Of a stretch of DNA of 40,971 bases, positions 4,483 through 22,688 are shown one piece after another. The notes below the pieces were generated by a model that had not been told where the DNA came from, did not search any database, and saw only the letters and a list, made by a program, of their open reading frames with translations. Made by a program: the position numbers and the translations under genes. Position 1 is the stretch's first letter. Each line of letters begins with the position of its first letter. Source of the stretch: a virus; IMG/VR virus record IMGVR_UViG_3300020455_000639, positions 1 through 40,971 of that record; one strand, written 5' to 3'.

Positions 4483-4520
4483 GCTAAATATGTTATACTT
4501 GATTTAAATTAGAACTTGTA

Positions 4521-5433: not shown

Positions 5434-5439
5434 ATCTAC

Positions 5440-5472
5440 GGTATAAAAATGTATTTAGAAATACAGTATACC
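5440..5472 (-). promoter_or_regulatory. palindrome with late-type promoter between fibre gene and glutaredoxin
   Basis: GGTATA (5440-5445) pairs with TATACC (5467-5472), and inside it TGTATTT (5450-5456) pairs with AAATACA (5459-5465). On the minus strand the inner hairpin is followed by ATTTTTAT, so it could terminate the gene at 5473-7392. The hairpin also contains TCTAAATA, a late-type box for the glutaredoxin gene. Confidence 0.45.
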
Positions 5473-7392
5473 TTAGATGTTAGTAACTAGCCAACCATTA
5501 GTGTCATCCCAAAACAATAGTTCAAAAGCAGCACCTTCAGTATTAACTGTCATGTCTGCAGCATCACCCATAATTGGTTTACCATTCCTAGCAATAGTTA
5601 ATGCAGCAGCATCAAAGTTCCTTCTGTAATCCATAATCTTAACCCTATCCCCTTGTACTGGAGCCGCAGGTAAAGTAAGAGTGAATGTACCACCACTATC
5701 AGTATCACACATTGCTGTTGTCCATGATGCAATAGTAGTATTAGAACTTATTACTTGATAGTTAGTATCAGGACCCCAAATAGGTACGTTCCTATTCAGA
5801 GACTTGTGACGGAATACTAATTCATCAATGGTTGAATCATATGATAATTGAGATAAAGTTGTTGTACCAATCCCTACCTCACCTTTAATTATTAGGTCTC
5901 CATCAGCAGCAAGGTCACCGTATGCCATGACTGCTGTGTTAGCAGCACCAATGATTGCTTGAGTTGTAGTAGCAGCAAAACCAACACCGATAGTTGCGAT
6001 ACCAGTAGTACCATTACTTAAATCAATCTGATTACCTCTAAGTGTATCAGCATAGTATACATACCTCCACTTCTTAGAATCTTGACCTAAGTCAAAGGAG
6101 TTAGCAACACCTGGAGTAATGTTTGAGTTAACGTTGGCATCAAGAACAACTGCGTTCTCTGTACCAACACCAGTGTTTACAGTACCACCTTGGAAGGTTA
6201 CAGTACCAGCAAAGGTAGATACACCAATAGTTTGTACGTTACCACCTATGTGGATGTCATCTGTGACGGTTACCTTGGATAGTTGTGTGTCACCTATAAC
6301 ATTAAGTGCTTTATCTCCTGGATCAGTAATACCAATACCAAGACCTTCTTTAACGTAAGCATTACATGCTGAGACTGTAGATCCAATACCTACGGAACCA
6401 AAGAAGTGTGTATACTCTACAAACTTACCTGTAAGAACAAAGTTAACAGGACCATAACTTCTTTCAAGTCCTTGAGTCAGTGAACTCTGGAATTTATGAC
6501 CAGTGACATTAGACTGAGGTGCTCCTGCTCCAACTCCATTAACTTGTAAAACTTGAACCGCAAAAGAATCTGTATGAATATCCTGAATCTTTAACCACTT
6601 ACCACTGATAGGATCAGATGGTCTAGGATATGAGTGATCACTTAAGTAATCATCTTGAGCACATCTAAACGTTATTGCTCCATCTTTAAATCTAACATGA
6701 TCTTTTGCAGTGAAACCATGTTGAGCAATAGTAACAGTCATGATACCTACAACAGGATCATAGATTGCGTTACTAATAGTATGTGGTGTTATATTAACAT
6801 CAGCATTAGACCTAACATACATTAAGTCATTAGGTTTACCTGTAATATCACTACGAACATGAGTGTTCTTCCTCATGACTTCATAGTTATACTCAAGATA
6901 ATCAGTAGAAGTAGTACCAAGACCAACCCTTACCTTTGAATCATAGGTTGCTTTGTTACATACAAATAGATTACCTTTAAAGTTTTTACCTGCAGGGAAT
7001 GTATGCAGAAGATCACTCATATTAGGATCGCTTGAGTAACCTTGTGCTATGATTCCTGCTTCTTGTTTGTCGGGACTTGACTCTCCAACAAAAGTAAATG
7101 CTGATTGAGTATCAGTAGAACGAACTATTACACTTTGTCCGTTGGCAATAGATACCATTTCTGATTCAAAATATTCCCCTGATGGTATCTCTTCTTCAAA
7201 AACAACATATCCATTCGTATTAAAAACATCTAATCCACCAGTAGAGAGTCCAACTCTCACTCGTATACTAGCAGAAGTTTGATTGGTACAAGAGACTCTA
7301 CCCTCTACCAAGTCACCTGCGGGAGCGGTATATAATAGTTGATTTTTCTTCGCCAAAGTTGGCCTTACATTTGCTAATGATCCAAAAGACAT
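5473..7392 (-). CDS. fibre-like virion structural protein (639 aa)
   Basis: The N-terminal ~200 residues are beta-rich. A module near residues 205-320 (HSYPRPSDPISGKWLK) recurs in the 1385-aa protein at 23554-27711 as HAYPRSTDPINDKWLG. A stretch of fibre-type short repeats (VIGDTQLSKVTVTDDIHIGG, VSTFAGTVTFQGG) follows. The last ~85 residues (TFTLTLPAAPVQGD, NGKPIMGDAADM) are shared with 23554-27711 and, more distantly, 28087-28542. It is probably a tail-fibre or baseplate-attached protein, lying apart from the main structural block next to metabolic genes. A CATAAATA late promoter precedes it. Confidence 0.75.
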   Translation of the reverse strand: MSFGSLANVRPTLAKKNQLLYTAPAGDLVEGRVSCTNQTSASIRVRVGLSTGGLDVFNTNGYVVFEEEIPSGEYFESEMVSIANGQSVIVRSTDTQSAFTFVGESSPDKQEAGIIAQGYSSDPNMSDLLHTFPAGKNFKGNLFVCNKATYDSKVRVGLGTTSTDYLEYNYEVMRKNTHVRSDITGKPNDLMYVRSNADVNITPHTISNAIYDPVVGIMTVTIAQHGFTAKDHVRFKDGAITFRCAQDDYLSDHSYPRPSDPISGKWLKIQDIHTDSFAVQVLQVNGVGAGAPQSNVTGHKFQSSLTQGLERSYGPVNFVLTGKFVEYTHFFGSVGIGSTVSACNAYVKEGLGIGITDPGDKALNVIGDTQLSKVTVTDDIHIGGNVQTIGVSTFAGTVTFQGGTVNTGVGTENAVVLDANVNSNITPGVANSFDLGQDSKKWRYVYYADTLRGNQIDLSNGTTGIATIGVGFAATTTQAIIGAANTAVMAYGDLAADGDLIIKGEVGIGTTTLSQLSYDSTIDELVFRHKSLNRNVPIWGPDTNYQVISSNTTIASWTTAMCDTDSGGTFTLTLPAAPVQGDRVKIMDYRRNFDAAALTIARNGKPIMGDAADMTVNTEGAAFELLFWDDTNGWLVTNI

Positions 7393-7473: not shown

Positions 7474-8280
7474 ATGATTATTGTTACTGGGACTCAAGGA
7501 TTCATTGGTAGGCACTTCCTTAATACATTAAGGGATAAGGGTGAAGATGTTATAGAGATTGATCAGCAAGGAGCATGGTATTTTAAAAGTAACTTTAATA
7601 AATGGGAAGAGGTAGACTTAATCATACATCAAGGAGCAATAACAGATACAACATGCACCATACTTAAAGCACTACAGGCTTGGAACGTAGACTATAGTAT
7701 ATGGTTATGTAAAAAAGCAATAGAACATCAGATCCCCATCCTGTATGCCTCATCAGCATCTGTCTATGGCAAGACATCTGACATGATCAATCCACTAAAC
7801 TACTATGCCTTATCTAAAGTCACTATAGACTATTGGATTCAAGATCATATAGATGAGTTTAAATTAATACAGGTGTTCAGATACTATAATGTATATGGAA
7901 CTGGTGAAGACCATAAAGGAGATCAAGCAAGTCCAGTAACTAAATTTGCAAAACAAATAAAAGAGACTGGTAAACTAAAACTCTTTGAAGGTTCTGATAA
8001 ATTCCTAAGAGACTTTGTATGTGTAGATGATGTAGTAAATCTTGTTCTTGAGAATGATAAAGAAGAATCTGGATTCTATGATCTAGGTACAAGTAACCCA
8101 GTAAGTTTTGCACAAGTTGCCCAATGGGTAGTTGATAAGTATGGTGGAGAGATAGAAGAGGTTCCATTCCCTGACCATTTAAAAAGAAAGTATCAAGAAT
8201 ATACCTGTGCTAAAAAAGAATGGGGTGATTATAAATTTAAAACTATCCCTGAATATCTTGAGGGATTACCTGCAAGTTAA
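7474..8280 (+). CDS. hldD: HldD-like ADP-heptose 6-epimerase / SDR sugar-nucleotide epimerase (268 aa)
   Basis: An extended short-chain dehydrogenase. It has the N-terminal NAD(P) motif TGTQGFIG, an HQGAITDTT segment, the SASVYG strand and the catalytic Y111-x3-K115. The mid-protein signature YYNVYGTGEDHKGDQASPV and LFEGSDKFLRDFV closely resembles HldD, which converts ADP-D-glycero-D-manno-heptose to the L-glycero form. At 268 aa it is shorter than bacterial HldD (about 310). A kinase and an adenylyltransferase of the same pathway lie at 11200-12355. It converges on and overlaps the oxygenase at 8243-8812 by 38 bases. The substrate is inferred. Confidence 0.8.
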   Translation: MIIVTGTQGFIGRHFLNTLRDKGEDVIEIDQQGAWYFKSNFNKWEEVDLIIHQGAITDTTCTILKALQAWNVDYSIWLCKKAIEHQIPILYASSASVYGKTSDMINPLNYYALSKVTIDYWIQDHIDEFKLIQVFRYYNVYGTGEDHKGDQASPVTKFAKQIKETGKLKLFEGSDKFLRDFVCVDDVVNLVLENDKEESGFYDLGTSNPVSFAQVAQWVVDKYGGEIEEVPFPDHLKRKYQEYTCAKKEWGDYKFKTIPEYLEGLPAS

Positions 8281-8812
8281 AACTTAAAGTCCGTCTCTCT
8301 GAGTCGGACTTTGTTTTGTTAACCCAATGCAACAATGAGTTAGGGAACATAAATGTTTTGCCTACCTCTTGCTCTGGTCTATGATGTTCATTGTTCCAAA
8401 TGAAATCTAAACTATGAAGATCATACCAATCAGAATCATCGGGTAACATTAGTATAGTTATCCCTGAGACATTACCTTTGTGATCATGTGGTGGAGTAAA
8501 GTCTCCTTTAAAATATCTATTAGCCCATACGTCAACATATAATTCACTAAAACTTGCAGGTTCATACTGCACATTAGCACTGTTTATATTCCAACTCTTT
8601 AAGTACTCAGGTATAACCTCTCCAATAAATGAGGTGAACCCTGAATCATTAACCTGCTCCTCAGTAAAATATACAATCTCAAAATCTCTATCTAATAAGT
8701 TTGGAAGATCCTGTTGACTTGTACTATCTACAATAGAATTTAATTCTTTTAATACCTTATCTGGACAAGCACATTCAAGTATAGATGGACCAAATGGATT
8801 AGTTAAATTCAT
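8243..8812 (-). CDS. 2OG-Fe(II) oxygenase-like protein, TIGR02466-like (189 aa)
   Basis: This double-stranded beta-helix protein resembles the TIGR02466 / 2OG-FeII_Oxy_5 group. Candidate metal ligands are in PPHDHKG (H109, H111) with a distal histidine H162 in LLHWVN. The 2-oxoglutarate-binding Arg would be in ERRTLSFN (R173 or R174). Such enzymes hydroxylate or otherwise oxidise an unactivated carbon, often on a carrier-bound or sugar substrate. It is the last gene of the minus-strand cluster and overlaps the upstream oxygenase by four bases. Its 3' end overlaps the epimerase and also encodes a hairpin (8286-8320). Confidence 0.7.
   Translation of the reverse strand: MNLTNPFGPSILECACPDKVLKELNSIVDSTSQQDLPNLLDRDFEIVYFTEEQVNDSGFTSFIGEVIPEYLKSWNINSANVQYEPASFSELYVDVWANRYFKGDFTPPHDHKGNVSGITILMLPDDSDWYDLHSLDFIWNNEHHRPEQEVGKTFMFPNSLLHWVNKTKSDSERRTLSFNLQVIPQDIQG
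8286..8320 (+). terminator. terminator for the epimerase, inside the convergent gene
   Basis: AAAGTCCG (8286-8293) pairs perfectly with CGGACTTT (8305-8312) around an 11-base loop, followed by GTTTTGTT. It starts five bases after the epimerase stop. The same bases encode part of the C-terminus of the oxygenase at 8243-8812, including its ERR motif. Confidence 0.7.
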
Positions 8813-9417
8813 GTGCCAAGATTTAAAAATGATGTAATGATATACTTATCCTCTGATAAAGGAACTGTACCTTCATGTCTAAAGAGATAGTTGCATGGGA
8901 AGATTACTAACTTACCTGCCTCTGGTTTAACTTTAACTTTATAATCCATGAAGTCAGTCTCACCACCCTCATCTACCGTATTTAAATAAAGAATGATACC
9001 AAAGGTTCTAATTACATTTGGACCTGCGGATTGATCTACATGCTCTAAAAACTTTCCTTGACCTTTATAATATATCCTAACAGAATAATCACTAAAAGAC
9101 ATTGGTTGTCCTTGTGGTGTAGGAAGTGTCTCTGAATATTGATGCCACCCATCAGTCATAACATCTGTCATGAAGTCTGATATAGGATCATCAGGACTTG
9201 GATATGCTTGTATAGTATTCTTCCTATCTAAATTTGTATGAAGACTTCCATCAGTAACTGAATCCTCACCACCATATACCTGTCCCTGTTGATGTAGGTC
9301 TTCATTATTCCAAAACCATTCTATACAACTAGCACATTGAGATGTACTTATTGCTTTTGGTTTTGTCCATATTAAATCTTTAAATGTAAGATGATCGGCA
9401 ACTATTTTAGTCATCAA
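8809..9417 (-). CDS. prolyl-4-hydroxylase-type 2OG-Fe(II) oxygenase (202 aa)
   Basis: A full-length oxygenase with the classical facial triad. H126-V-D128 is followed by IILYLNTVDEGGETDF, then the distal histidine H181 in LFRHEG and the 2-oxoglutarate-binding Lys (K191) in DKYIITSFL. This matches the prolyl 4-hydroxylase alpha-subunit-like fold. The substrate may be a protein, a peptide or a cluster product. The gene overlaps both neighbours by four bases (ATGA), a sign of coupling with the sugar cupin upstream and the other oxygenase downstream. Confidence 0.85.
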   Translation of the reverse strand: MMTKIVADHLTFKDLIWTKPKAISTSQCASCIEWFWNNEDLHQQGQVYGGEDSVTDGSLHTNLDRKNTIQAYPSPDDPISDFMTDVMTDGWHQYSETLPTPQGQPMSFSDYSVRIYYKGQGKFLEHVDQSAGPNVIRTFGIILYLNTVDEGGETDFMDYKVKVKPEAGKLVIFPCNYLFRHEGTVPLSEDKYIITSFLNLGT

Positions 9418-9770
9418 TCACCTTTAAAAATTCTGTGTGAATCCTCATCAAAATGTTGAGTAGAAAATTCAAACAACTCAGAGGTTTCTAAAGCATACAT
9501 TTGATGTCTCATCTTCCTTGGGACATGGAACTTATCTCCTGGTTCAAGTATCCTAGTATATGATTGATTTAAATCGTCAGTCTGACCATAAAATAAATGT
9601 ATTCTACCTGACTGAAGATAGAAGGTCTCATCTTTTAATAGATGATAATGCCATGAACATCTCTTACCCTTATTAAAGAATAAGATCTTACCACAATACT
9701 CTGGACAATTTACAATCCATTTCTCATTACCCCATCCCTTTTCAACGTATTTAATTTTTGAAAAAGGCAT
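9414..9770 (-). CDS. sugar-type cupin, mannose-6-phosphate isomerase-like (118 aa)
   Basis: A single-domain cupin. W13-G-N-E16 near the start, the metal site H41-Y-H43 with E48, and R88-H89-Q90 form the usual cupin ligand set. The sequence resembles cupins of sugar-phosphate isomerase/epimerase type in surface-polysaccharide clusters. It probably acts on a sugar phosphate or nucleotide sugar, but the reaction cannot be read from sequence. It overlaps the upstream HAD phosphatase by 20 bases. Confidence 0.8.
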   Translation of the reverse strand: MPFSKIKYVEKGWGNEKWIVNCPEYCGKILFFNKGKRCSWHYHLLKDETFYLQSGRIHLFYGQTDDLNQSYTRILEPGDKFHVPRKMRHQMYALETSELFEFSTQHFDEDSHRIFKGD

Positions 9771-10101
9771 GGTCGTTGACTCCTTTGTCGTCTATAAAGT
9801 GATCTGCATGTGGTTTACCCATGATTAACTCATGGTATTTACAACCCCACATTTTTAATTGTGCTTGAGTTAGTGGTTGTAATAACTCTTCCGCAACTCT
9901 CGCTGCTTCTACATGAGGTTTAGTTTTATTCCTACCCATTGCACGAGCAGTCATGTATATAATATAGTGTCCTTCATCATATAGTTTGTTCACTGCCTCT
10001 ATCCTATCCTTCTTAGGAGTAGCACCTTCATACTGGCATGTCCCACACCCCTCACCAGTTGTACAGATAGTACCATCAATATCAAAACAATATCGTGCCA
10101 T
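9751..10101 (-). CDS. HAD-family phosphatase of capsule/LPS type (116 aa)
   Basis: A small HAD phosphatase without an obvious cap domain. Motif I is D7-I-D9-G-T, motif II is the Thr in YMTARAMGR (T51), motif III is the Lys in MGKP (K96) and motif IV is D104-D105 in FIDDKG. The sequence resembles BcbF-like phosphatases found in capsule and LPS clusters. In the heptose pathway a HAD enzyme (GmhB) removes the C7 phosphate after the kinase step. This protein is smaller than GmhB (about 190 aa) but could fill that role; this is inference from context. A Cys-rich loop (GEGCGTCQYEG) is unusual. Confidence 0.8.
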   Translation of the reverse strand: MARYCFDIDGTICTTGEGCGTCQYEGATPKKDRIEAVNKLYDEGHYIIYMTARAMGRNKTKPHVEAARVAEELLQPLTQAQLKMWGCKYHELIMGKPHADHFIDDKGVNDHAFFKN

Positions 10102-10102
10102 G

Positions 10103-11203
10103 TTATTTTTTACCTAGGTATAGTGTCTTCAATGGATGTCTGGTTGTGGACATAGTTGCATGATAATAATCAATCTTTGCAAGTCCAATAGATATTCCAG
10201 CATCAGTGGATATAGGTTCAACATATAGTTTAACACCTTCTGGAAGATGTTTCAAGTACTCATAGTTTGCTACACAATTCAAAGCACACCCACCAGTTAA
10301 TACTAAATTCTTCTCACCTGTAACATCTAATGTCTTTAGTATTAAAGCAGTCATATAAGTTTCAAAATCTTTTTGTACTCTGTACGCAAGATTAGCAAAC
10401 TTTTGTTTTATATCCTTACTATCTATATCAATAAACTCATCTGTGTCGTTCGGGTATTTCACATAATTATAGGGTATAAAATTTATACCAAACCTACTAC
10501 GATAAAATAATTCTGTAACAAGAGTACCATCATCATGAAGAAAAGATTTTATGTTAGGATCTTCCTTACCATATGAAGACAGACCCATTAATTTACCAGA
10601 ACCAAAGTCTCCAAACCCAAAGTAATTAGATAGTGATTGATATACCATACCAATACCAAAACACAATGGTATCTTATCTGCTTCAAGAAATATTGGAGTA
10701 AAATTAGTAGATTGTCTTTTAAATATAGTTGGATAAGAACAGTTGTAAATACTCTCTACTTCTTGTACATCATCCCTATCTTCAAGAGGATTACCCATAC
10801 CATCTACAACAAGTACACCAGCTCTTTGGAATCCTGAATTATAAAAACCACATGCAGCATGATAAACATGATGTTGAGCATAAGATTCATAATGTACCAA
10901 TTGTTTATGAATTTTTGATGCTCCAATACTACTAGTATATTTTTTAGATACTTGCATACTAAAAGTTTCTGCATCCATTGTGAACTTCGGTTTATTATGA
11001 GGTTCAAATAAACCTGCTATCTGTACCTTATTATCTACACTAGTGATATCCATATTAAATAGAGCTAAAGATGGATAACTATCATGTTTCACTCTACTAA
11101 ATCTCTCCTCTTCAGCGAACCAATCAATCTCACCATTGGTTATCTGACATACAGAAGAGTCATGTGTTAAATTAACACCTAAATGAGGTTTACTTTTTTT
11201 CAT
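10103..11203 (-). CDS. carbamoyltransferase lacking the C-terminal domain (366 aa)
   Basis: The protein contains the complete Kae1-like N-domain of the NodU/TobZ family: LGVNLTHDSS at the start, HHxxHA with H112 and H115, VVDGMGN (D134), MGLSSYG, and TGGCALNCVANYEY near residue 310. It ends at YLGKK, exactly where the full-length paralogue at 15894-17732 passes into its linker (YYGPEY near residue 393). The YrdC-like C-domain with GPRALGNRSIL is absent and no remnant is visible, because the HAD gene starts one base later. It may work with another subunit, have changed function or be inactive. It overlaps the kinase gene by four bases. Confidence 0.82.
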   Translation of the reverse strand: MKKSKPHLGVNLTHDSSVCQITNGEIDWFAEEERFSRVKHDSYPSLALFNMDITSVDNKVQIAGLFEPHNKPKFTMDAETFSMQVSKKYTSSIGASKIHKQLVHYESYAQHHVYHAACGFYNSGFQRAGVLVVDGMGNPLEDRDDVQEVESIYNCSYPTIFKRQSTNFTPIFLEADKIPLCFGIGMVYQSLSNYFGFGDFGSGKLMGLSSYGKEDPNIKSFLHDDGTLVTELFYRSRFGINFIPYNYVKYPNDTDEFIDIDSKDIKQKFANLAYRVQKDFETYMTALILKTLDVTGEKNLVLTGGCALNCVANYEYLKHLPEGVKLYVEPISTDAGISIGLAKIDYYHATMSTTRHPLKTLYLGKK

Positions 11204-11967
11204 AATGAATTAATATCATTAGGTGTTAATGTATAACATCCATAGTTCTGCACTGCAATAGCAGATGCTTTGTTAGCAATTTTAATTGATGCCTCCATGT
11301 CATGTTCTTTTAAAAACTCAGCACATAATGCTGCAAGGAATGTATCACCAGCACCTACCACATCAAATACATTTACATTCTCACTAGGATATAACTCATC
11401 CATATACCATGCACCCTGACCTCCAGCAGTTGTAATTAAATTCTGCTTCGCAGGGTGTACTCTTAAAGTAGATGCTTCTCTCTGATTTATTTTAAAGATA
11501 ACATTCTGTGCTGAGAATAATTCCTTCTTCTTAGTATCAATAAAGACTGGACCTGTAAAATTCTGACAAAAGGTTATGAGATCTTCTATCTTAACAAACC
11601 CTTTATCATAATCAGATATAACTATGGCATCAAACTGTGATGTTAAGAATGCCATCTTAACTTCAGCAGGTTTTATTGGATCAACCTGATCATCATAATC
11701 AACCCTAACCAACTGTTGCTTACTAGCAATGTCAACTATTCTTTTCTTCTTTATTAATTTTCTATTAGTAATATGAGTTACATGAACTCCAAATGCTTGT
11801 AGATTCCTCTTAACATTCTCAGACATACCAAGAGCAGTAAGAGTCTCTTCATGTTTTACAACAGGAACTGGTGCTTCTGGACTTATTCTATCTACACTAC
11901 CAAAGATATAACTATCTTCACATGTCTCGCCTATCAATAATACTTTGTACTGTTTTTGTTGTTGCAT
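11200..11967 (-). CDS. heptose-7-phosphate kinase, HldE N-domain-like PfkB kinase (255 aa)
   Basis: A ribokinase/PfkB-family sugar kinase. RISPEAPVPVV near residue 27 is typical of the HldE kinase domain, and DVVGAGDTF near residue 202 holds the catalytic Asp (D208). HldE phosphorylates heptose 7-phosphate to the 1,7-bisphosphate. The usual GGAANV substrate/nucleotide motif is replaced by ALGMSENV (about 45-52), and the protein is shorter than the ~315-residue HldE domain. I start it at the ATG at 11967; the 11985 start would be TTG. It overlaps the adenylyltransferase gene by 50 bases. Confidence 0.8.
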   Translation of the reverse strand: MQQQKQYKVLLIGETCEDSYIFGSVDRISPEAPVPVVKHEETLTALGMSENVKRNLQAFGVHVTHITNRKLIKKKRIVDIASKQQLVRVDYDDQVDPIKPAEVKMAFLTSQFDAIVISDYDKGFVKIEDLITFCQNFTGPVFIDTKKKELFSAQNVIFKINQREASTLRVHPAKQNLITTAGGQGAWYMDELYPSENVNVFDVVGAGDTFLAALCAEFLKEHDMEASIKIANKASAIAVQNYGCYTLTPNDINSL

Positions 11968-12355
11968 AATCACCAACCCTATCAAAAAATACTAACTTAG
12001 CAGCAGACATAGATCCTATCACAGTCTTATTCTTCCAATCAGATCCAACAACCATAACATGAGGTTTTATAAACTCAACCATTGCTGCTAACTGTGAATC
12101 ATTATCAAAGACTGCAACTCTATGCACTGACTTTAAATTTTCAAGAAAGAATTTCCTATCTTCCATATTATATATGGGTCTAGAATCACCTTTCATCTCA
12201 GCAACCCTTCGGTCACTATCAATACCAACATATACTCTGTCACCTAATGACTTAGCATAGTTAAGTAGTTCCAGATGCCCACGATGAAGTAAGTCAAATG
12301 TTCCGTTGACAAATACTTTAGTAGATGGATGATAAAATTGTCTACCAATGCTCAT
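11918..12355 (-). CDS. heptose-1-phosphate adenylyltransferase-like (145 aa)
   Basis: A cytidylyltransferase-like protein with N17-G-T-F20 and the H24-R-G-H27 nucleotide-binding motif, then DRKFFLENLKSV and VVGSDWKNK. The C-terminal DYATTKTVQSI takes the place of ISSTTEK-type motifs. It matches the C-terminal domain of HldE (RfaE2), which joins AMP to heptose 1-phosphate. Here it is a separate gene upstream of the kinase, the opposite order to the bacterial fusion. With the epimerase at 7474 and the HAD protein it completes most of an ADP-heptose route. Confidence 0.82.
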   Translation of the reverse strand: MSIGRQFYHPSTKVFVNGTFDLLHRGHLELLNYAKSLGDRVYVGIDSDRRVAEMKGDSRPIYNMEDRKFFLENLKSVHRVAVFDNDSQLAAMVEFIKPHVMVVGSDWKNKTVIGSMSAAKLVFFDRVGDYATTKTVQSIIDRRDM

Positions 12356-12978
12356 GAGTATACATTCAAGGTGTCTTGTTGTGATAACATAAAACTAAAG
12401 ATCCATAAGACACGATGCTTATCACCAATGATTTCATCTACCCCATGCTCTGCTTGAGATACAATATACATTAGTAGATCAGTCTCTTCAGTCTCCCAAG
12501 GTTCACCATCAATATATGTAACACCACCAGAGTCTGGTTTCTGTGTTATAAAATTACAATGAACTGTATTGGTTCCTTCAAACCAAGGTGGATCTGTGTG
12601 AGGATGTATGGTTCCTCCTTTAAAACTTATCTCTGTAATTATACCATCTTTTCCTACAGGAGAACACCCAAAGTCTTTGAACCCAAATGTATTTACAAGA
12701 CGATTCTGTATATCATAACAAAGTTTTGGATACTCAAAATCAGGAGATGATGATACTACACATCTAGCATGATCCATATTGGTAGGATCAATAAGAGGAT
12801 TCTGATAATTAACTAGTGGGTTAGCAAACCTAGTAGTTAATTTTGTATCTTTAAGACCCTTAGAATCCATCCTAGGGTCCATAAACCAGTCTTTATGATA
12901 ATTACTCTCAGTCCACTGAGTTAATTCTTTTGCTTCCTCTGGTGTAAGGAAGTCTTTATATGCTCTTACTTTATCCAT
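12352..12978 (-). CDS. 2OG-Fe(II) oxygenase (208 aa)
   Basis: Carries the facial triad H127-T-D129 in HPHTDPPW and a distal histidine H178 in QAEHGVD. R189 in KHRVLWIFSF is the likely 2-oxoglutarate anchor. The beta strands between (VHCNFITQKPDSGGVTYIDG) are as expected for a double-stranded beta-helix. It is only weakly similar to the two oxygenases at 8243-9417. It overlaps the upstream halogenase by eight bases and the adenylyltransferase by four. The substrate is unknown; the position between the halogenases and the sugar genes suggests tailoring of the same product. Confidence 0.78.
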   Translation of the reverse strand: MDKVRAYKDFLTPEEAKELTQWTESNYHKDWFMDPRMDSKGLKDTKLTTRFANPLVNYQNPLIDPTNMDHARCVVSSSPDFEYPKLCYDIQNRLVNTFGFKDFGCSPVGKDGIITEISFKGGTIHPHTDPPWFEGTNTVHCNFITQKPDSGGVTYIDGEPWETEETDLLMYIVSQAEHGVDEIIGDKHRVLWIFSFMLSQQDTLNVYS

Positions 12979-14479
12979 TGTAAGGTATATTCAGACTCTC
13001 ACCTTTATGTATTTTAATAAGACACTGATCTATAAACTGAGCATGAAGAATAGATTTAACATGCTTCTCTTGTTCATTACAAAAAAAGTCTCTAACTAAT
13101 ACATCAGCATCAAAAGGTGGAACTTTTTTATTTTGTTTAGGTTCAATCTCATCCTTATTTAACATCTGACATAAGAACATAGACCAGTTATCTCCAGCAA
13201 ACATATAGTTTCCATTTGATGGAAGTCTAACTGGATTATTTAATACCTCATTCTCATAATACAATAATTTCTCACTTGGTTTATAGGTATCCTGAACATA
13301 CTTCCAGAACTTACCAGTCTTCCTTTTATTATATGCATAATGCATGTTAACAAAATCAATACAACTTTCATAGAATGAAGTCATTTGATGATTATATCCT
13401 TTTACTATTAAATCATCATAAAAACTACCACGACATGCCTCTACAAATTCCATTGCACCAGAAGATATTAATGCAATACCAGTGCTCTCTATAGGTTCAA
13501 TAAATCCAGCAGACAATCCAATAGTTACAACATTATCAACCCAAAAATTCTTATGATAATATGGAGTCCAATCTAATACTCTTAACTCATCTGGAGTTAC
13601 TCTACCATCCCAATACTTAGAGAAGGATTGCTTTACATCATCAACATCACTAACAGATTTATTAAAAACTAATCCAGATCCTATTCTTTCTTGAGTTGGT
13701 GTCTTCCATATCCAACCATCTTCTACAGCAGCACATGTTGTATATGGATTCTGTTCTATTGCTTTATTTCTGTAGTCAAAACGACCAGCGACTGCTGTAT
13801 CACAAAACAATCTACCTGTACAATCTACACTGTCAGGTTCAGGTGCTATCAATCTCTTAAATCCAGTACAATCAATGAATATATCTGATTGTATCTCCTC
13901 ACCAGTATCTATAGTAATATGATTAAGACCACCACGTTCATTCCTATCAACAGATATTACTTCATGTTCAACTAATTGTATTTTTCCTAAAAGTTTTCCT
14001 CTGACCCAACGAACTAACTTACCACAGTCAATATGATATGCATAAGTTCCTATGTTCTCTGGGTCAACTTTATTCTCTGTGACACCAGGATGATATAAAG
14101 CACAAGCATGAGTAAAATAATCATACTCCTTGAACATAGTCCATAGAGATAACAAATCAGTATCCAGGTTATTAAACATTGGAAACGCAAAAGGATGCCA
14201 TAAATTAACACCTTCTTGTTGCCAATCCTTAAATAAGATTCCACATTTAAATGTAGCATCTATCTCAGGTATCCACTCTTCAGGTTTAAACCCACAGTCA
14301 TACATGAACTGTTTAAAATTTAAGATAGTTGCTTCACCTACTCCAATAGGATCAGAAACTTTTTTATCTACTAACAATATCTCAGTTTGAGAAGGCATCT
14401 TCTCAACCAAATAAGCAGCGGTCAACCATCCAGCAGTACCACCACCAACAATAACAACTCTATTAACAGGTTTAATCAT
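12971..14479 (-). CDS. tryptophan-halogenase-type flavoenzyme 1 (502 aa)
   Basis: A full-length FAD-dependent halogenase of the Trp_halogenase family. It has GGGTAGW (residues 12-18) for FAD, the catalytic lysine K78 in ATFKCGILF (K79 in PrnA), and E331-S332 in GFIEPIESTG (E346-S347 in PrnA). The family motif WxWxIP is present as W256-I-W258-K-T-P261, with Thr for Ile. Such enzymes make HOCl from FADH2, O2 and chloride and chlorinate an aromatic ring. No flavin reductase is encoded nearby, so a host reductase would be needed. It overlaps its paralogue at 14476 by four bases. Confidence 0.9.
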   Translation of the reverse strand: MIKPVNRVVIVGGGTAGWLTAAYLVEKMPSQTEILLVDKKVSDPIGVGEATILNFKQFMYDCGFKPEEWIPEIDATFKCGILFKDWQQEGVNLWHPFAFPMFNNLDTDLLSLWTMFKEYDYFTHACALYHPGVTENKVDPENIGTYAYHIDCGKLVRWVRGKLLGKIQLVEHEVISVDRNERGGLNHITIDTGEEIQSDIFIDCTGFKRLIAPEPDSVDCTGRLFCDTAVAGRFDYRNKAIEQNPYTTCAAVEDGWIWKTPTQERIGSGLVFNKSVSDVDDVKQSFSKYWDGRVTPDELRVLDWTPYYHKNFWVDNVVTIGLSAGFIEPIESTGIALISSGAMEFVEACRGSFYDDLIVKGYNHQMTSFYESCIDFVNMHYAYNKRKTGKFWKYVQDTYKPSEKLLYYENEVLNNPVRLPSNGNYMFAGDNWSMFLCQMLNKDEIEPKQNKKVPPFDADVLVRDFFCNEQEKHVKSILHAQFIDQCLIKIHKGESLNIPYNG

Positions 14480-15894
14480 AATGCCACCATCTTGTTGTAT
14501 TTTAACACAAAATCTTTATGAAGTATATAATCACCAGACACACTAAAGAAAGAAGTCGGTGGTAAAGAAGATTCTTTATTACAAATATTATCAGGTATCA
14601 TTTGACATAAAAATAAACTCCAACTCTCTCCTGTGAATATATCTATATCATCACAACCACAGGGTAATTCATATGGATTATTAGATGATTCATACTCAAA
14701 GAATTCTAATGCTTTTGTCTTAGTATAAACCTTCTGAACATACTCCCAGAATTTACCAGTCTTCCGTTTGTTATATGCATAATGCATGTTAACAAAGTCA
14801 ACACACTGCTCAAAATATCCTTGCATCTTCAAGTTATATCTCCATACATTAAGATCATCATATCTATTACCAGCAATCGAATGTGCTAATGAAGTAAGAC
14901 CAGAAGTTATTAAAGCAATGCCACTACTCTCTAAAGGTTCTATAAATCCAGCAGACAATCCAATACACACTACATTATCATGCCAAAAAGTCTTACGATA
15001 ATGTGGTGTCCAATCAAGAACCTTTAAGTCATCTACTCTTCCTTCCCAATAATTATTAAAGTATTCCTTCGCTTCCTCAGTATCAGTTACTGATCTATTA
15101 TATACTAACCCAGTTCCTAATCTAGATTGAGTTGGTATCTTCCATATCCATCCATGATCTACAGCATGACACTCAGTATATGGTTGCATCTCAGAATCAG
15201 GATCAATATAATTAACATGACCTGCAATTGCTGAATCACAAAACAATCTATCCCCACAATATATACCCTCATATTTTAAACCAAGAAGTCTTTTAAACCC
15301 TGTACAATCAATAAACAAATCAGACTCAATCTCCTCACCAGATTCTAATTTGATAGAAGATATACCTCCACGTTCATTCCTATTAACATCTATAACTCCC
15401 TGCGGAACAAAAGTAATCTCATTTAATATCTTAGACTTAATAAATTTAACTAACTTATCACAATCAATATGATATGCAAATGATCCAATAGCACTTTGAC
15501 TAATTTTATTCTCAGTAACAGCAGGATCATAAAAAGCACAAGCATGCTTGTGGAAATCAAATTCTTTATAGTTTGTCCATAGGTTTAACTCGTCAGGTAA
15601 ATGACCAAAAGGATGCCATAGATTCTTACCCTCCTGCTGCCAATCTTTAAATAAGATTCCAGTTTTAAAGGTAGCATCTATAGCAGTAAACCACTGTTCA
15701 ACAGAGAATCCACAATCATACATGAACTGTTTAAAACTGATGATAGTTGCTTCACCCACACTAACAGTCTCAGATACTGTCTTATCAACAACAATAATCT
15801 CACACTGTTTTCTCTTTCTCTTTAAAAGATATGCAGCACTAAGCCAACCAGCAGTACCACCACCAACTATAACTATCCTATTAACAGGACGCAT
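14476..15894 (-). CDS. tryptophan-halogenase-type flavoenzyme 2 (472 aa)
   Basis: A paralogue of the neighbouring halogenase. It carries GGGTAGWLSAAYL (residues 11-23), the catalytic K77 in ATFKTGILF, a perfect family motif W249-I-W251-K-I-P254, and E322-S323 in GFIEPLESSG. The two proteins share long identical stretches (NMHYAYNKRKTGKFW), so they arose by duplication. It is 30 residues shorter, mainly in the C-terminal part and a loop near residue 100, which may change the substrate pocket. Translation is coupled to the carbamoyltransferase upstream by a TAATG junction. Confidence 0.9.
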   Translation of the reverse strand: MRPVNRIVIVGGGTAGWLSAAYLLKRKRKQCEIIVVDKTVSETVSVGEATIISFKQFMYDCGFSVEQWFTAIDATFKTGILFKDWQQEGKNLWHPFGHLPDELNLWTNYKEFDFHKHACAFYDPAVTENKISQSAIGSFAYHIDCDKLVKFIKSKILNEITFVPQGVIDVNRNERGGISSIKLESGEEIESDLFIDCTGFKRLLGLKYEGIYCGDRLFCDSAIAGHVNYIDPDSEMQPYTECHAVDHGWIWKIPTQSRLGTGLVYNRSVTDTEEAKEYFNNYWEGRVDDLKVLDWTPHYRKTFWHDNVVCIGLSAGFIEPLESSGIALITSGLTSLAHSIAGNRYDDLNVWRYNLKMQGYFEQCVDFVNMHYAYNKRKTGKFWEYVQKVYTKTKALEFFEYESSNNPYELPCGCDDIDIFTGESWSLFLCQMIPDNICNKESSLPPTSFFSVSGDYILHKDFVLKYNKMVAL

Positions 15895-17732
15895 TAGATT
15901 TTTTTAATTTCAGTTTGATCTTCTTGTTCGTTCTCTACATGAATTAGAATAGAATATTCAGGAAGATATAAGTACTCAATATCACTATTAGCAAGAGTCC
16001 GTAACGCATCATCGAGTGTTTCAACCAGAGGTTCTCCACCCAAATTAAAGGAAGTATTAAAGATGATAGGGCAACCAGTCTGTTCAAAGAATTCCTTGAT
16101 GAGTTTGTAGTAGTTCTCATTCTGTTCTTCTGTTACTGTTTGTATTCTACATGTGCCATCAACATGAATGATAGAAGGAATTTTTTCTTCAATACCTTCT
16201 TGACAGTTAACAGCATACATCATGAACGGAGTCTCATCCATACCACGAAGATCAAACCACTCATGTACATGTTCTTTTAAAATAGAACCTGCAAATGGTC
16301 TGAAGTATTCTCTATGCTTAACAGCATTAACATGATCTTTTCCATTTGGATCACGAGGATCATATAGAATAGAACGATTACCAAGTGCTCTTGGACCTGC
16401 TTCCGATCTACCTTGGAACAGTGCAACAATATTTTTATTAGTAATTAATTCAACAACATCTTTATCGGTTGCATTATTAACTATTGAAGTTGCATTATAC
16501 TTCTCAGCAATCTTACTAATTGTATGTTCATCGTACATATATTCAGGTCCATAGTAAAGGTCATTAATTTTGTTATGTATTCTAGTATCATTAGTAATTC
16601 TATGATACGCTAGATAAGCAGCACCAACAGCAGTACCAGCATCATTACTTACAGGTTCAACAAAGACATTGATATCCTCATCTTTTAATTGATCAAGATA
16701 CCAATAGTTTGCAACACAATTTAATCCATACCCACCAGATAATACTACATTATTATTACCACTCATAGCAACTGCTTTACGAATCAAATCAAGAACCATC
16801 TGTTGGGACTCAGTTTGAATAGCGTATGCCATATCTCTACGATTTTCTAGTAGAGTTAATTGTTCATGCTCAACATTTGATGGAGTTTTAAGTACTTCAT
16901 ATCTACCTTCATTAACTACAGCACCATTAGGATACGTAGGAACGATTACATTACGATCAGCAGTAATCCATTCTCCACCAGAACCATCAGTATAAATCTT
17001 TGGAATTAATTTGTTTGGTTTTCCATATGGGAATAGTCCCATAGTTTTACCTGCTTCAATAGGAGGCCATCCACAGTACTGTGTGACTGCTTCATATGCT
17101 TTAACTATACCAGCACTCTCATCTAAAATAAACTCATGGGTTCCCTCTTCAAATTCATCTTCAGACTTACTATCCATCTCAGGAATCAAAGCGGAACCCC
17201 ATGGTCCTCTACCTCCTTGATGTTTATAAATTGTTTGAATATCCGCTGGATACTCACAAGTAAATAATGATTCCAACTCAAATGTCATCTCAGTATCATT
17301 ACCAATATTCAAAGGAATAAAAGTACCAGCACCATCTACTACAACTGCTACTGCTGATTCAAATCCAGAACGATAGAATGCACATGCAGCATGAAGTTTA
17401 TGATGTGTCCTACTTAAATCAATAACCTGTGGATGTTGATGGGGATCTACTTTCTGATCAATTAATCCCAACTTCCTAGCAAGTCCAGTATAGATATCCT
17501 CACCAGAAAAATCTACTGTCCCTGCCTGTGATAATGATTGTGTATGTGCTATTACAAGATAATCAATCTTGTCAGTATAATCTAGGATCTTAACCATAGA
17601 AGCATAAGGTCCACCATCATACTTATTTCTAGACAATCTCTCTTCTTCTAAAGAAAATACAAGTTCACCATCTTTTAATAGGCAAACACCAGAGTTATGA
17701 CCTCTAGCAATTGCTGCAATCCATTGTGTCAT
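15894..17732 (-). CDS. carbamoyltransferase, full length, NodU/TobZ family (612 aa)
   Basis: The most canonical of the three carbamoyltransferases. IARGHNSGVCLL starts the Kae1-like domain. HHxxHA (H111, H114), VVDGAG (D133), MGLFPYG near residue 231 and LSGGYGLNCVANY near 331 follow. The YrdC-like C-domain carries GRSEAGPRALGNRSIL (441-456) and YFRPFAGSIL, which bind the carbamoyl-adenylate. Length is normal for the family. It probably carbamoylates a hydroxyl on the product of the neighbouring halogenases or on the sugar. It is one base from the glycosyltransferase upstream and overlaps halogenase 2 by one base. Confidence 0.93.
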   Translation of the reverse strand: MTQWIAAIARGHNSGVCLLKDGELVFSLEEERLSRNKYDGGPYASMVKILDYTDKIDYLVIAHTQSLSQAGTVDFSGEDIYTGLARKLGLIDQKVDPHQHPQVIDLSRTHHKLHAACAFYRSGFESAVAVVVDGAGTFIPLNIGNDTEMTFELESLFTCEYPADIQTIYKHQGGRGPWGSALIPEMDSKSEDEFEEGTHEFILDESAGIVKAYEAVTQYCGWPPIEAGKTMGLFPYGKPNKLIPKIYTDGSGGEWITADRNVIVPTYPNGAVVNEGRYEVLKTPSNVEHEQLTLLENRRDMAYAIQTESQQMVLDLIRKAVAMSGNNNVVLSGGYGLNCVANYWYLDQLKDEDINVFVEPVSNDAGTAVGAAYLAYHRITNDTRIHNKINDLYYGPEYMYDEHTISKIAEKYNATSIVNNATDKDVVELITNKNIVALFQGRSEAGPRALGNRSILYDPRDPNGKDHVNAVKHREYFRPFAGSILKEHVHEWFDLRGMDETPFMMYAVNCQEGIEEKIPSIIHVDGTCRIQTVTEEQNENYYKLIKEFFEQTGCPIIFNTSFNLGGEPLVETLDDALRTLANSDIEYLYLPEYSILIHVENEQEDQTEIKKI

Positions 17733-17733
17733 A

Positions 17734-18861
17734 TCACTTAAGTTTTTGTAGAATGTTTTTTACATCTGGATTTGATGTCTCAATTTGACCAAAACCCTTA
17801 GTCTTAGAAGCATCAAACTTTATCTTAGGTTTATTACTTTGAGGTAATGATTGTTGTTGTGGTTTATCACAACAAGCATTAGCATCATCTTTGTTTTTTA
17901 TTTGGAAGTTACCAGTATACGCTGCTGGTTTACCCATTCTCTTCTTAACAGAATCAATAACTGCCTTCTTATGTGCCTCAGTCATTTCCATACACTCATC
18001 ATTAGCACGATCTACTACCTCATCAATACAAACTCTAATTGGTGAATAAAGTCTTCCATTATCCTTACCAACATCAACAATATCCATGTTCTTATTGTCA
18101 GGATAAGAGATGTTAACTGGGAATGTAGATCCACAAACCATAGTAGTGGTTGTATCTAATGCCATAGCAATGTGCTGACCCATACTATCACAACCTAAAA
18201 AATGATCTGCAGCATGTATGATACCTGCCCATAATCTCATGTCTTGTATTTCTGGACGAGCAACCATATGCTTCTGCTCATCCTTCTCTAGTGGGAAGTG
18301 AATCTCACTCATTATAATAACAGCATAATCTTTCTTGAGTTTATTAATAATCTCAACAACATTATTAAGACCAAAACTTCTAGAAGTAGCGTCAACAATA
18401 AAGTCCTGCCCTATAGTCTCAACTGACCTACCAAAAGGTTGAACAACTAATAGTTTATCCTTACCAGTTCCTGCTTTAACTTCTTCTACCGCAGTAAATC
18501 CAGCACAGATCTCATTCTTAGTTAAAACAATCTGTGGGATAGGTAGTTCTCTTGGTTCATCTAACTCATTAATAATAATATCAAATGCCTGTGCTAGACT
18601 TGCCTTCTGATTAAAATAATGCCACTCTCTATATGGTTCTGGAGTCACCAGATCCATGTGTATTAATTTCTCTTGGAATATATTCTTGTGCCAATTATCA
18701 TATGCCTTTGAATATAATGTAGGATGACCTTTAAGGAAGTCAGTTCCACCTTCACACATAATAACAAAGTCGTCGTGAGTTTCTGCGTATTTTTCAAGCG
18801 CAGGTATGGAGCAAATTATACGACCCGCTCCACCATTAAGAAAGAATGCTTTAGATCTCAT
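17734..18861 (-). CDS. GT9/heptosyltransferase-like glycosyltransferase (375 aa)
   Basis: A GT-B-type protein. The first domain has LNGGAGRIICSIPALEKY (residues 9-26), like the N-terminal glycine motif of ADP-heptose LPS heptosyltransferases. The second has HAADHFLGCDSMGQHIAMAL (216-235), with DSMGQH where GT9 enzymes have D(S/T)GPxH. GT9 enzymes transfer L-glycero-D-manno-heptose from ADP, which fits the kinase, adenylyltransferase and epimerase nearby. A Lys/Gln-rich C-terminal tail of about 80 residues, including an ACCDKPQQQ stretch, is not part of the usual fold. A TCTAAATA box lies 20 bases upstream. Confidence 0.72.
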   Translation of the reverse strand: MRSKAFFLNGGAGRIICSIPALEKYAETHDDFVIMCEGGTDFLKGHPTLYSKAYDNWHKNIFQEKLIHMDLVTPEPYREWHYFNQKASLAQAFDIIINELDEPRELPIPQIVLTKNEICAGFTAVEEVKAGTGKDKLLVVQPFGRSVETIGQDFIVDATSRSFGLNNVVEIINKLKKDYAVIIMSEIHFPLEKDEQKHMVARPEIQDMRLWAGIIHAADHFLGCDSMGQHIAMALDTTTTMVCGSTFPVNISYPDNKNMDIVDVGKDNGRLYSPIRVCIDEVVDRANDECMEMTEAHKKAVIDSVKKRMGKPAAYTGNFQIKNKDDANACCDKPQQQSLPQSNKPKIKFDASKTKGFGQIETSNPDVKNILQKLK

Positions 18862-18892: not shown

Positions 18893-19651
18893 TTAAAAGA
18901 ACATGATCTGGGTTAACCGATCATAATTATGATACAATTCAGGTTCTAATATTGCACCATGAACTTGGTTTGCATCATAAACCATACATCTATTATAGCG
19001 TATAGGTACGATTGCTTGCAACTTTGGATGGTTTATTGAACCATCAGAATTGGGTGGGACAACACTATAAAGTCCTGTACCTGGAATTTTTTCCTCACCA
19101 TACTCTTCTGGCGTATTTAGATAGACTAAAGAAGCCCATTTATTATACATTCCATCTATATGACATACAGTATACCAAGGTCTCTGTGATCTGACAACCT
19201 CCTCATGATTTGTCACGTTAACAACAAACCTCATATTAGACCACTTATCATAATGATGTTCCTTATCAAATCTTATATGCCATGCTTCACTATTACATAT
19301 CTGTTCAAAGACAGGAGACATCTTATCTTCCATCTCCTTCATAGTCTCTTCTGTTTCATCCCAAACTCTTCTACCTATTGCACCTGCCATCCTTGCATCA
19401 TCAGGTCTAAGACCATGTTTGTCAGTCCACACATTAGTCTTATCTCTCTTACTTTCATCCTTAAATTCTTTTAATTGACTACGAGTATACTCTCTTAACT
19501 CATCTGGATTCCTATAAAAATCATCAATAATAAAATATGTTTTCTCAACTTTATCTAAGTTAAAATCTACCTTACCATCACTAACAGAATGCCATGTGAT
19601 ATCTGTTGTAGTCTTTACTTGTACTTTAAGATCAGGATTAATTTCAAACAT
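18893..19651 (-). CDS. DUF6445-like 2OG-Fe(II)-type oxygenase (252 aa)
   Basis: The protein has candidate ligands H164-I-D166 in VCHIDGMYNKWASLVYLN, a distal H231 in ANQVHGAI and R245 in YDRLTQIMFF. Together these form the oxygenase triad plus co-substrate Arg. The layout, with GTGLY near residue 191, recalls DUF6445, a family often found beside tryptophan halogenases in bacteria. I start it at the ATG at 19651, which overlaps the upstream stop (TAATG). Its role is probably a partner or tailoring enzyme for the halogenated product; the reaction is unknown. Confidence 0.72.
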   Translation of the reverse strand: MFEINPDLKVQVKTTTDITWHSVSDGKVDFNLDKVEKTYFIIDDFYRNPDELREYTRSQLKEFKDESKRDKTNVWTDKHGLRPDDARMAGAIGRRVWDETEETMKEMEDKMSPVFEQICNSEAWHIRFDKEHHYDKWSNMRFVVNVTNHEEVVRSQRPWYTVCHIDGMYNKWASLVYLNTPEEYGEEKIPGTGLYSVVPPNSDGSINHPKLQAIVPIRYNRCMVYDANQVHGAILEPELYHNYDRLTQIMFF

Positions 19652-20190
19652 TATAATAAAGGAATACAACCATAATTTTCTGTAATATAATAATCCAACT
19701 CTTGATAATTATAATCTGTCATCACATCAAATCCTATAGTAATTCTTTTACCTTTATACTCTCTTAAATTTTTTACTCTGTGACTATGATAACCTGGTCC
19801 AAAGTATATATTACCAACTTGATTATCAATTGTCCACTTCTCAAATTCTGTTTCAGTATCCTGAGGTTCTATAGCAATGTAACCATGATAAGCAGAGTCA
19901 TGATTGTGCCACTGCAATACACCATCCCAATCTTGATAGTTCAACCATGACTGTATCCACAATCTCTCATCAGGTAACTGACTTCTAATAAGACCTCTTA
20001 AAGTCTCAAAGATTTTATACATGTGTATAGACGGAGAAGACACCCCAAAGATATTATACTTTGTGTAACCAAACGTGCTATCTGACACGCCTAGTTCCCG
20101 TATAATATCATGGGATGTCTTTAGTTCTTTTATGATCTCCTGTTGATGTTCTTTTATGTATTCAAAATTGTATAATATGTAATCAGACAT
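19651..20190 (-). CDS. 2OG-Fe(II) oxygenase-superfamily protein (179 aa)
   Basis: The protein shows W94-H95-N-H97-D98, then strand HGYIAIEPQD, then GPGYHSHRV (H135 or H137) and KRITIGFDV (R149). This is the order of metal ligands and co-substrate Arg in phage and cyanobacterial 2OG-type oxygenases. The proximal motif is H-x-H-D rather than a plain H-x-D, so the exact ligands are uncertain. I start it at the ATG at 20190; the upstream GTG at 20199 is an alternative. It is the first gene of the minus-strand metabolic cluster and lies just downstream of an extended -10 promoter. Confidence 0.68.
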   Translation of the reverse strand: MSDYILYNFEYIKEHQQEIIKELKTSHDIIRELGVSDSTFGYTKYNIFGVSSPSIHMYKIFETLRGLIRSQLPDERLWIQSWLNYQDWDGVLQWHNHDSAYHGYIAIEPQDTETEFEKWTIDNQVGNIYFGPGYHSHRVKNLREYKGKRITIGFDVMTDYNYQELDYYITENYGCIPLL

Positions 20191-21050: not shown

Positions 21051-21842
21051 TTAAAGGTAACTAACTTTAACTAGTCCTGGACCTCCAGTTGATCCTCTAC
21101 CACAGCAACCACTACCACCACAATACGTAGTCATAGCACCCTGTCCACCGTGACCATAAGGTGATGTCCAGCAACCACATCTCATCCAACACTCATGTAT
21201 GTTTTGGTTTATTGAAGTACCAATAAATGGTGCTGACGTTGGTGAAGCACCAAAACACTGACAATGGCAATGAGTCATGTGTATAAAGAATGCTCCTCTA
21301 TGGTTACCCATCGTGAAGTCTGATCCATGAGCAGTAGGACTTACACAACATCTACCCCAAGTAGAGTGACATGCTTCGTTCCAACTACCATTAGCACAAC
21401 CTCCAGTACCACCCAAGGCACAGAAGTTACTTAAGTTATATCCATTCGCATAGGAAGCACAACCGTGACAACCATCACAACTATTTTGTTCACATGGATA
21501 TGTACCAGCAGCACAAATAGTATATTGACAACCAGGAGCAGTTTGAATCATCTTAGATGCATAATACCCACCTTGAGCACCTGCATAGTGTTGACATCTA
21601 CCAGTACTACACATCCCGTGTCCATTACCACCAGCACCCCACATCTCGAAGAATACTCTTCTTACGCCCGTTGGGACTGTCCAAAGACAACAGCATCCAG
21701 TAGAACACCTGTTAGGTGAACCCCAGTAATACCTTACGTTCCAAGTATCAAACACACCAGAAGCAACAGCAGCCTGTGGGACTGAACCGTCAACTAACTG
21801 AGTAGCACCGTCAACTTTTTTATAGCTTGCGTATGAGGCCAT
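21051..21842 (-). CDS. Cys-rich, Gly-rich putative fibre adhesin 1 (263 aa)
   Basis: One of three tandem paralogues. It has about 26 cysteines (10%) and many glycines. The N-terminus ASYASYKKVDG is shared with the other two. GCCCLWTVPTGV, the glycine stretch GAGGNGHG, CDGCHGCASY, CWMRCGCW and YCGGSGCCGRG follow. The Gly-rich core resembles glycine-rich domains of phage tail-fibre tips. The cysteines may form disulfides once the virion is outside the cell or bind metal; this is inference. Closest to paralogue 3, with which it shares exact DNA blocks of 29 and 32 bases. A GATAAATA late-type box precedes it, and a terminator follows. Confidence 0.7.
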   Translation of the reverse strand: MASYASYKKVDGATQLVDGSVPQAAVASGVFDTWNVRYYWGSPNRCSTGCCCLWTVPTGVRRVFFEMWGAGGNGHGMCSTGRCQHYAGAQGGYYASKMIQTAPGCQYTICAAGTYPCEQNSCDGCHGCASYANGYNLSNFCALGGTGGCANGSWNEACHSTWGRCCVSPTAHGSDFTMGNHRGAFFIHMTHCHCQCFGASPTSAPFIGTSINQNIHECWMRCGCWTSPYGHGGQGAMTTYCGGSGCCGRGSTGGPGLVKVSYL

Positions 21843-21864
21843 GTTTAAAAACTTCCTGTAACTT

Positions 21865-21872
21865 TATTTATC
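21865..21872 (-). promoter_or_regulatory. late-type promoter GATAAATA
   Basis: Minus-strand GATAAATA 23 bases before the ATG of the Cys-rich gene at 21051-21842. It overlaps the stop codon of the Cys-rich gene at 21871-22671. Confidence 0.45.
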
Positions 21873-22671: not shown

Positions 22672-22688
22672 TTTTTTATGTAAGTCCT

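Follow-up and report, generated by a model that had tools for sequence, protein, structure and literature searches.

Two overlapping genes for predicted PrnA-type halogenases in a tail-fibre-flanked island of a relative of T4-like cyanophages

Two adjacent genes of the virus record IMGVR_UViG_3300020455_000639 (IMG/VR; positions 1 to 40,971, the whole of this 40,971-nucleotide stretch being the window hereafter), denoted halogenase A (downstream copy) and halogenase B (upstream copy), encode paralogous proteins of the flavin-dependent halogenase family. On balance, we consider it probable that they are two PrnA-type halogenases of a relative of T4-like cyanophages, located in a gene island flanked by tail-fibre genes, and that the second copy arose by duplication, with B having diverged. 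The original prediction, derived from the nucleotide sequence alone, placed a tandem pair of paralogues at 12971-15894, and both open reading frames (ORFs) are found there, intact and complete on the minus strand, with the products 57% identical across 456 residues. The start of A and the stop of B share an ATGA overlap of 4 nt, and the two genes are probably translationally coupled.

Two predicted PrnA-type halogenases

The bit scores of both proteins against the PF04820 profile (Table 1) far exceed the curated cut-off of 21 bits. As predicted, each retains the FAD motif, the catalytic Lys, the Trp-x-Trp motif and the Glu-Ser pair: GGGTAG at 12, Lys 78, WIWKTP from 256 and Glu-Ser 331-332 in A, and GGGTAG at 11, Lys 77, WIWKIP from 249 and Glu-Ser 322-323 in B. 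The GxGxxG motif and the catalytic Lys, Glu and Ser of variant A halogenases are thus all present in A and B, and the WxWxIP motif keeps both Trp residues and the Pro in each copy, with Ile in B and Thr in A. The Thr, pointed out in the original prediction, is no peculiarity of A as judged from the alignment: Ile is not invariant among phage members, this position being occupied by Ile in 153, Thr in 37 and other residues in 19 of 213 viral or phage halogenase rows (4 gaps; near-copies and fragments are included in the count). The predicted difference in loop and C-terminal length corresponds to a six-residue loop after the HPF motif and to the C-terminus.

The AlphaFold models of A and B have predicted local distance difference test (pLDDT) scores of 93.9 and 93.2, respectively. 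The best 48 of the 50 structures listed for each model are PrnA-type halogenases, with Z-scores of 37.1-40.9 for A and 37.8-42.4 for B, and the next structure in both cases is CndH, with Z of 26-27; the matches to solved PrnA-type halogenases (Z 37-42) extend over 446-484 residues, which indicates the same fold. A structure search among viral models with A and B added little. Profile, motifs and modelled fold jointly support the assignment of A and B to the PrnA-type ('variant A') flavin-dependent halogenases, with both predicted to be active, as originally proposed.

The Trp4 motif (EFRNFW- or YHG-type), which characterizes the free-tryptophan halogenases (groups A and B of PMC8269204), is found in neither A nor B, whether searched for by pattern or by alignment, and because this binding motif is missing, free tryptophan appears to be an unlikely substrate of either enzyme. 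Among 400 scanned halogenase ORFs, Trp4 was found in three, including a PrnA-like control (L149; L-numbers are labels of fetched comparison loci, and winA and winB stand for A and B). Scattered YY/NGNY letters in A were rejected as a candidate Trp4 as they neither align with this motif nor occur in all orthologues. According to a table in PMC8269204, the group C halogenases VirX1, BrvH and MibH also lack Trp4. The accessible parts of the literature searched name no natural substrate for the phage halogenases, VirX1 included. The search for a flavin reductase, which covered three families (PF01613, PF00175 and PF03358), gave no match to any of them in six records, namely this record and five phage records, in agreement with the predicted lack of such a gene nearby in the 41-kb record, so that reduced flavin adenine dinucleotide (FADH2) would come from the host.

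Copy number in the slot and origin of the pair

For the slot between the neighbouring carbamoyltransferase and nucleotidyltransferase genes, 160 loci were fetched via these two flanks; both flanks are held by 28 loci, with 0, 1 and 2 halogenases in 15, 12 and 1, respectively. Counted per contig, after the removal of L309 and L355, the second loci of contigs already counted, the distribution is 14, 11 and 1 among 26 contigs, a count that leaves out this record and L003 and includes closely related contigs, which are not independent of each other. The closest informative relative, L003, has a single halogenase that is 89% identical to A (90.8% at the DNA level); its DNA matches the carbamoyltransferase-B junction of the window up to and including the first bases of the gene, and A from there on. 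Because L003 thus has one halogenase with the start of B and the body of A, B looks dispensable as far as sequence comparison can tell, and the L003 state looks like the product of recombination between the gene starts. Two other close loci are uninformative: L004 (91% identical to A) starts within A, and L225 (99% to the carbamoyltransferase) stops short of the slot.

Phylogenetic analysis places A and B in a fully supported (100/100) clade of seven island halogenases, consisting of A with L003, B, L228 with L229, and L226 with L227. Within this clade, A and B (with L003) as a single lineage are compatible with the data (approximately unbiased test, p-AU 0.353), whereas B with L226/L227, a grouping named after a tree had been seen, is marginally rejected (p-AU 0.0455). 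At sites where the amino acid is shared, the codon mismatch between A and B is 0.69 of saturation (confidence interval, CI, 0.58-0.80), compared to 0.79-0.98 for A or B versus L226-L229; among 17 comparisons, it is the lowest after that of the orthologues A and L003 (0.31). Given the shared, fully supported clade and the synonymous codons that are closer between A and B than to the single-copy relatives, these data favour a lineage-specific duplication. The duplication part of the original prediction is therefore upheld as the favoured scenario; strict sisterhood of A and B is not established. The simple sister relationship in an initial FastTree tree (support 100) vanished once the single-copy L226-L229 were added.

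The ratios of nonsynonymous to synonymous substitution rates (dN/dS) are 0.21 for A-L003, 0.38 for A-B, 0.09 for L228-L229 and 0.14 for L226-L227, values that indicate purifying selection on the halogenases, looser between A and B. The protein closest to B among the other 45 aligned is that of L226 (61%), and orthologues of B may exist outside the sampled sequences.

Divergence between A and B

L226-L229 show no variation among them at 270 sites; of these, 39 are altered in A, with L003 sharing 31 of the alterations, and 69 (59 when gaps are left aside) are altered in B. The changes in B are enriched in A98-150 and A401-502, two regions picked after the data were seen, with 37 of 70 sites changed there versus 32 of 200 elsewhere (without gaps, 27/60 versus 32/200, p 1e-5), whereas the changes in A are not (12/70 versus 27/200, p 0.44). 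In the motif table of PMC8269204, a loop follows the Trp2 motif, and Trp4 lies in the C-terminal part of tryptophan halogenases; when the Trp2 and Trp4 motifs are placed onto A and B, by analogy, the two regions would contain this loop and this C-terminal part and would probably face the substrate. By these comparisons, A is the more conservative copy. The protein rate of B is faster with L228 and L229 as outgroups (p 1e-5 and 7e-5), and a strong claim of accelerated B evolution was rejected given the dependence on the outgroup and the similar codon patterns of other same-genome paralogues.

Halogenase arrays in other phages and known relatives

The pair is not a rarity: two or three neighbouring halogenase genes on the same strand are seen repeatedly in viruses as well as in bacteria, and VirX1 itself belongs to a pair. 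Same-strand arrays (gap of at most 60 nt) are present in 27 distinct viral or phage locus groups, this record included, and missing in 109; among 80 bacterial loci, 30 arrays turned up. These counts come from samples ranked by similarity and do not equal prevalence; cut contigs were scored as having no array, and some overlaps are inflated by ORF extension. Overlapping pairs are found also in P-TIM40, P-RSM6 and S-RIM44, and three halogenases in a row in L012/L013, L015 (the third cut by the contig end) and L104. The genes of the triples in L013 (4502-8936) and L104 (3060-7587) overlap or are adjacent, and the third copy in L013 is very divergent (branch 2.2).

VirX1 of cyanophage Syn10 is reportedly an iodinating halogenase. 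The Syn10 protein CPUG_00131 matches PDB 6qgm (VirX1) over its full length, and its gene overlaps that of a second halogenase, CPUG_00132, so that VirX1 is encoded by the downstream gene of two overlapping ones. Like A and B, these are overlapping PF04820 genes that follow tail-fibre genes in a T4-like cyanophage; unlike A and B, the copies are only 39% identical to each other and fall in a different clade, and their neighbours are mostly annotated as hypothetical, none as a carbamoyltransferase or heptose gene. The P-RSM6 pair (CPXG_00184/00183) resembles A and B in being tandem, overlapping sisters (54% identical) and differs in belonging to the VirX1-containing group. The island of S-SSM7 (GU071098) has broadly the same gene order around the slot (tail fibre, carbamoyltransferase, halogenase SSSM7_125, nucleotidyltransferase, kinase and an epimerase on the other strand), and synteny extends to viral contigs. 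In contrast to the present island, the S-SSM7 slot has a single halogenase, which is 40% identical to A and is separated from the carbamoyltransferase by three extra genes, and the island is followed by gp13 instead of a tail fibre; elsewhere, S-SSM7 has another halogenase-like frame, which is short (367 aa). The tryptophan 7-halogenases PrnA and RebH share the fold and the catalytic residues with A and B; they are just 21-28% identical to A and B over the fold and have the tryptophan-binding Trp4 motif that A and B lack.

A broad tree, built from 59 selected rows, groups the upstream copies from Syn10, S-RIM44 and P-TIM40 in one clade (97) and the downstream copies from these three phages in a second one (97) together with the P-RSM6 genes, which are sisters (100). 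A and B lie outside the VirX1 subclade, in a far-off, separate viral group of 48 rows (branch support 99). This topology suggests at least three origins of halogenase pairs.

Tryptophan-halogenase-like genes of phages, including two copies per genome, have been published already (PMC3037559, PMC2984593). In the accessible parts of these papers, PMC3037559 tabulates two prnA genes with lengths of 1593|1524 and 1104|1488, fitting the Syn10-type pair and S-SSM7, and PMC2984593 lists prnA x2 in one table column; an excerpt of PMC10452541 gives such genes in 20 of 153 cyanophages. No discussion of overlapping phage halogenase pairs was found in the available text of the open-licence literature searched. 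The present analysis adds the copy-number variation at the level of the slot, the recurrence of overlapping arrays and the placement of VirX1 within such a pair.

The gene island and the source virus

A and B belong to a run of overlapping or abutting genes that forms an operon-like island between tail-fibre genes, with tail-fibre and tail-fibre-assembly genes upstream (Table 1). The B gene shares 1 nt with that of a NodU-like carbamoyltransferase, and A shares 8 nt with the gene of a small protein that resembles 2-oxoglutarate (2OG) oxygenases by eye only, has no match in Pfam, PHROG or NCBIfam, and is conserved beside the halogenase in L226-L229, L305 and L003. The heptose-type names of several neighbours rest on NCBIfam matches below the curated cut-offs.

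Table 1. Features of the window around halogenases A and B
Feature	Position	Strand	Evidence
Third carbamoyltransferase	2968-4482	-	PF16861 4.9e-49
Ferredoxin-dependent bilin reductase	4521-5198	+	PF05996 1.3e-30
Tail fibre downstream of island	5473-7392	-	phrog_11338 tail fiber protein 8.8e-30
Sugar-nucleotide epimerase, ADP-heptose-6-epimerase-like	7474-8280	+	PF01370; TIGR02197 201 bits, below 274.6 cut-off
2OG-Fe(II) oxygenase	8243-8812	-	PF13759
2OG-Fe(II) oxygenase	8809-9417	-	PF13640
Cupin	9414-9770	-	PF07883 1.2e-06
HAD-type phosphatase-like	9751-10101	-	TIGR01689 24.6 bits, below 162 cut-off
Second carbamoyltransferase (N-terminal domain)	10103-11203	-	PF02543 5.7e-22
PfkB kinase, heptose-7-phosphate-kinase-like	11200-11985	-	PF00294; TIGR02198 154 bits, below 345 cut-off
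Nucleotidyltransferase, heptose-1-phosphate adenylyltransferase-like	11918-12355	-	PF01467; TIGR02199 108 bits, below 181.5 cut-off
Small protein	12352-12978	-	2OG-oxygenase-like by eye only (HTD)
Halogenase A, downstream copy, 502 aa	12971-14479	-	PF04820 6.7e-88, 296 bits
ATGA overlap, A start and B stop	14476-14479	-	ORF coordinates
Halogenase B, upstream copy, 472 aa	14476-15894	-	PF04820 1.5e-92, 311 bits
Carbamoyltransferase, NodU-like	15894-17732	-	PF16861 1e-61, PF02543 9.1e-26
Conserved island protein	17734-18861	-	phrog_8954 3.2e-143; sub-threshold heptosyltransferase-like match, E 0.09
DUF6445 protein	18893-19669	-	DUF6445; PHROG named minor coat protein
Three tandem phrog_4205 proteins	21051-23483	-	phrog_4205; 52-60% identical
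Tail fibre upstream of island	23554-27711	-	phrog_9851 tail fiber protein 7e-254

The two flanking tail fibres have a C-terminal segment, phrog_31104, in common. The three phrog_4205 proteins adjoin the upstream tail fibre, and the DUF6445 protein is encoded in the island, upstream of the carbamoyltransferase.

Related phage genomes measure 177-233 kb, several times the length of the record, which is therefore most likely a fragment. The source virus is a relative of marine, T4-like cyanophages and infects bacteria; the bilin reductase, closest in sequence among solved structures to dihydrobiliverdin:ferredoxin oxidoreductase 2x9o, also points to a cyanophage-like virus.

Tail-fibre or tail-fibre-assembly matches are found shortly before the halogenase pairs of Syn10, P-TIM40, P-RSM6 and S-RIM44 and also precede the halogenase of S-SZBM1 and that of S-CREM1, each a single copy. 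In Synechococcus phage S-SRM01 (L139), the halogenase (4001-5458) is flanked by a tail protein on one side and by a gene annotated as a gp37-gp38 adhesin tip on the other.

Alternative explanations

Several observations weigh against the interpretation of A and B as a duplicated, diverged pair tied to the tail fibres. The best tree joins A and L003 with L228/L229 (83/85), leaving the sisterhood of A and B unproven. The dating of the duplication is soft because the codon mismatch of same-genome paralogues elsewhere is 0.71-0.94 and the CI for A-L229 (0.69-0.91) overlaps that for A-B; some neighbour genes compared to L226-L229 and some same-genome paralogues, at 0.71-0.78, come near the A-B value. 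Apart from the post hoc choice of the two regions of B, its faster protein rate is not seen with L226, L227 or L235 (p 0.26-0.38). As for the context, other phage halogenases are located near terminase, recombination, hli/tRNA and psbA genes, adjacency to tail fibres may only mark a variable region, and matches to the late-promoter-like sequences CTATAAATA (0 versus 0.97 expected) and TATAAATA (4 versus 4.43 expected) show no excess. Import of B (or A) from a related phage by recombination into the slot, instead of tandem duplication in place, would fit the missing sisterhood in the best tree, the plainly exchangeable content of the slot and the higher similarity of B (0.66) than of A (0.51) to L226 in A151-300; the codon mismatch and the tree tests described above speak against such an import, which we regard as possible yet on the unlikely side.

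With respect to function, successive action of A and B on one acceptor, yielding dihalogenation, is suggested by the overlap of the genes, which hints at co-expression, and by the precedent of KtzQ and KtzR, which are said to act in tandem on tryptophan. The single slot copy in L003 and in 11 of the 26 syntenic contigs, and the lack of any in 14 of the 26, make this scenario rather doubtful. That B is a redundant copy maintained by dosage or drift, with no new role, accords with its absence from L003; given that B is intact with its catalytic residues kept, that A and B, at just 57% identity, are distant for dosage copies, and that dN/dS for B-L226 is about 0.16 (CI 0.03-0.24, with synonymous sites near saturation), we deem it improbable. 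Weak NCBIfam matches to other flavin enzymes, all below the cut-offs, are the case for a pair of non-halogenating flavin monooxygenases, a very improbable assignment considering that A and B keep the halogenase residues, that halogenases lead all other solved structures listed by more than 10 Z units and that, according to the accessible text of PMC8407142, the phage relative VirX1 halogenates.

Proposed activity and implications

In flavin-dependent halogenases, FADH2, O2 and halide give hypohalous acid, which the conserved Lys carries to an aromatic C-H near the Glu-Ser pair. By this mechanism, A and B would each bind host-derived FADH2 and proceed through the same steps. Both would be part of a tail-fibre-flanked tailoring island, with between 0 and 2 genes in its halogenase slot; duplication in this phage lineage is the most likely source of the second copy, and L003 appears to have lost it again through recombination near the gene starts. 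With the catalytic residues kept and the probable substrate-facing regions altered, B would likely act at a different position or on a different acceptor. Judging from the gene context, the acceptor may be a large aromatic group, built or decorated by the island, on a virion fibre or a surface glycoconjugate, in place of free tryptophan.

A more far-reaching proposal, which we put forward as a long shot, is that marine phages attach halogens to aromatic groups of their own tail fibres or of the host surface by means of one to three halogenases in an array, alongside 2OG oxygenases, carbamoyltransferases and heptose-type genes, and that A and B modify different sites and thereby tune adsorption or block superinfection. 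To our knowledge, halogenated virions would be the first such case. Since related phages differ in how many halogenases (0, 1 or 2) occupy the slot next to the tail fibres, virion or host-surface chemistry could be compared directly among them, and A, B and the L003 gene constitute a small natural series for finding the changes that alter the acceptor.

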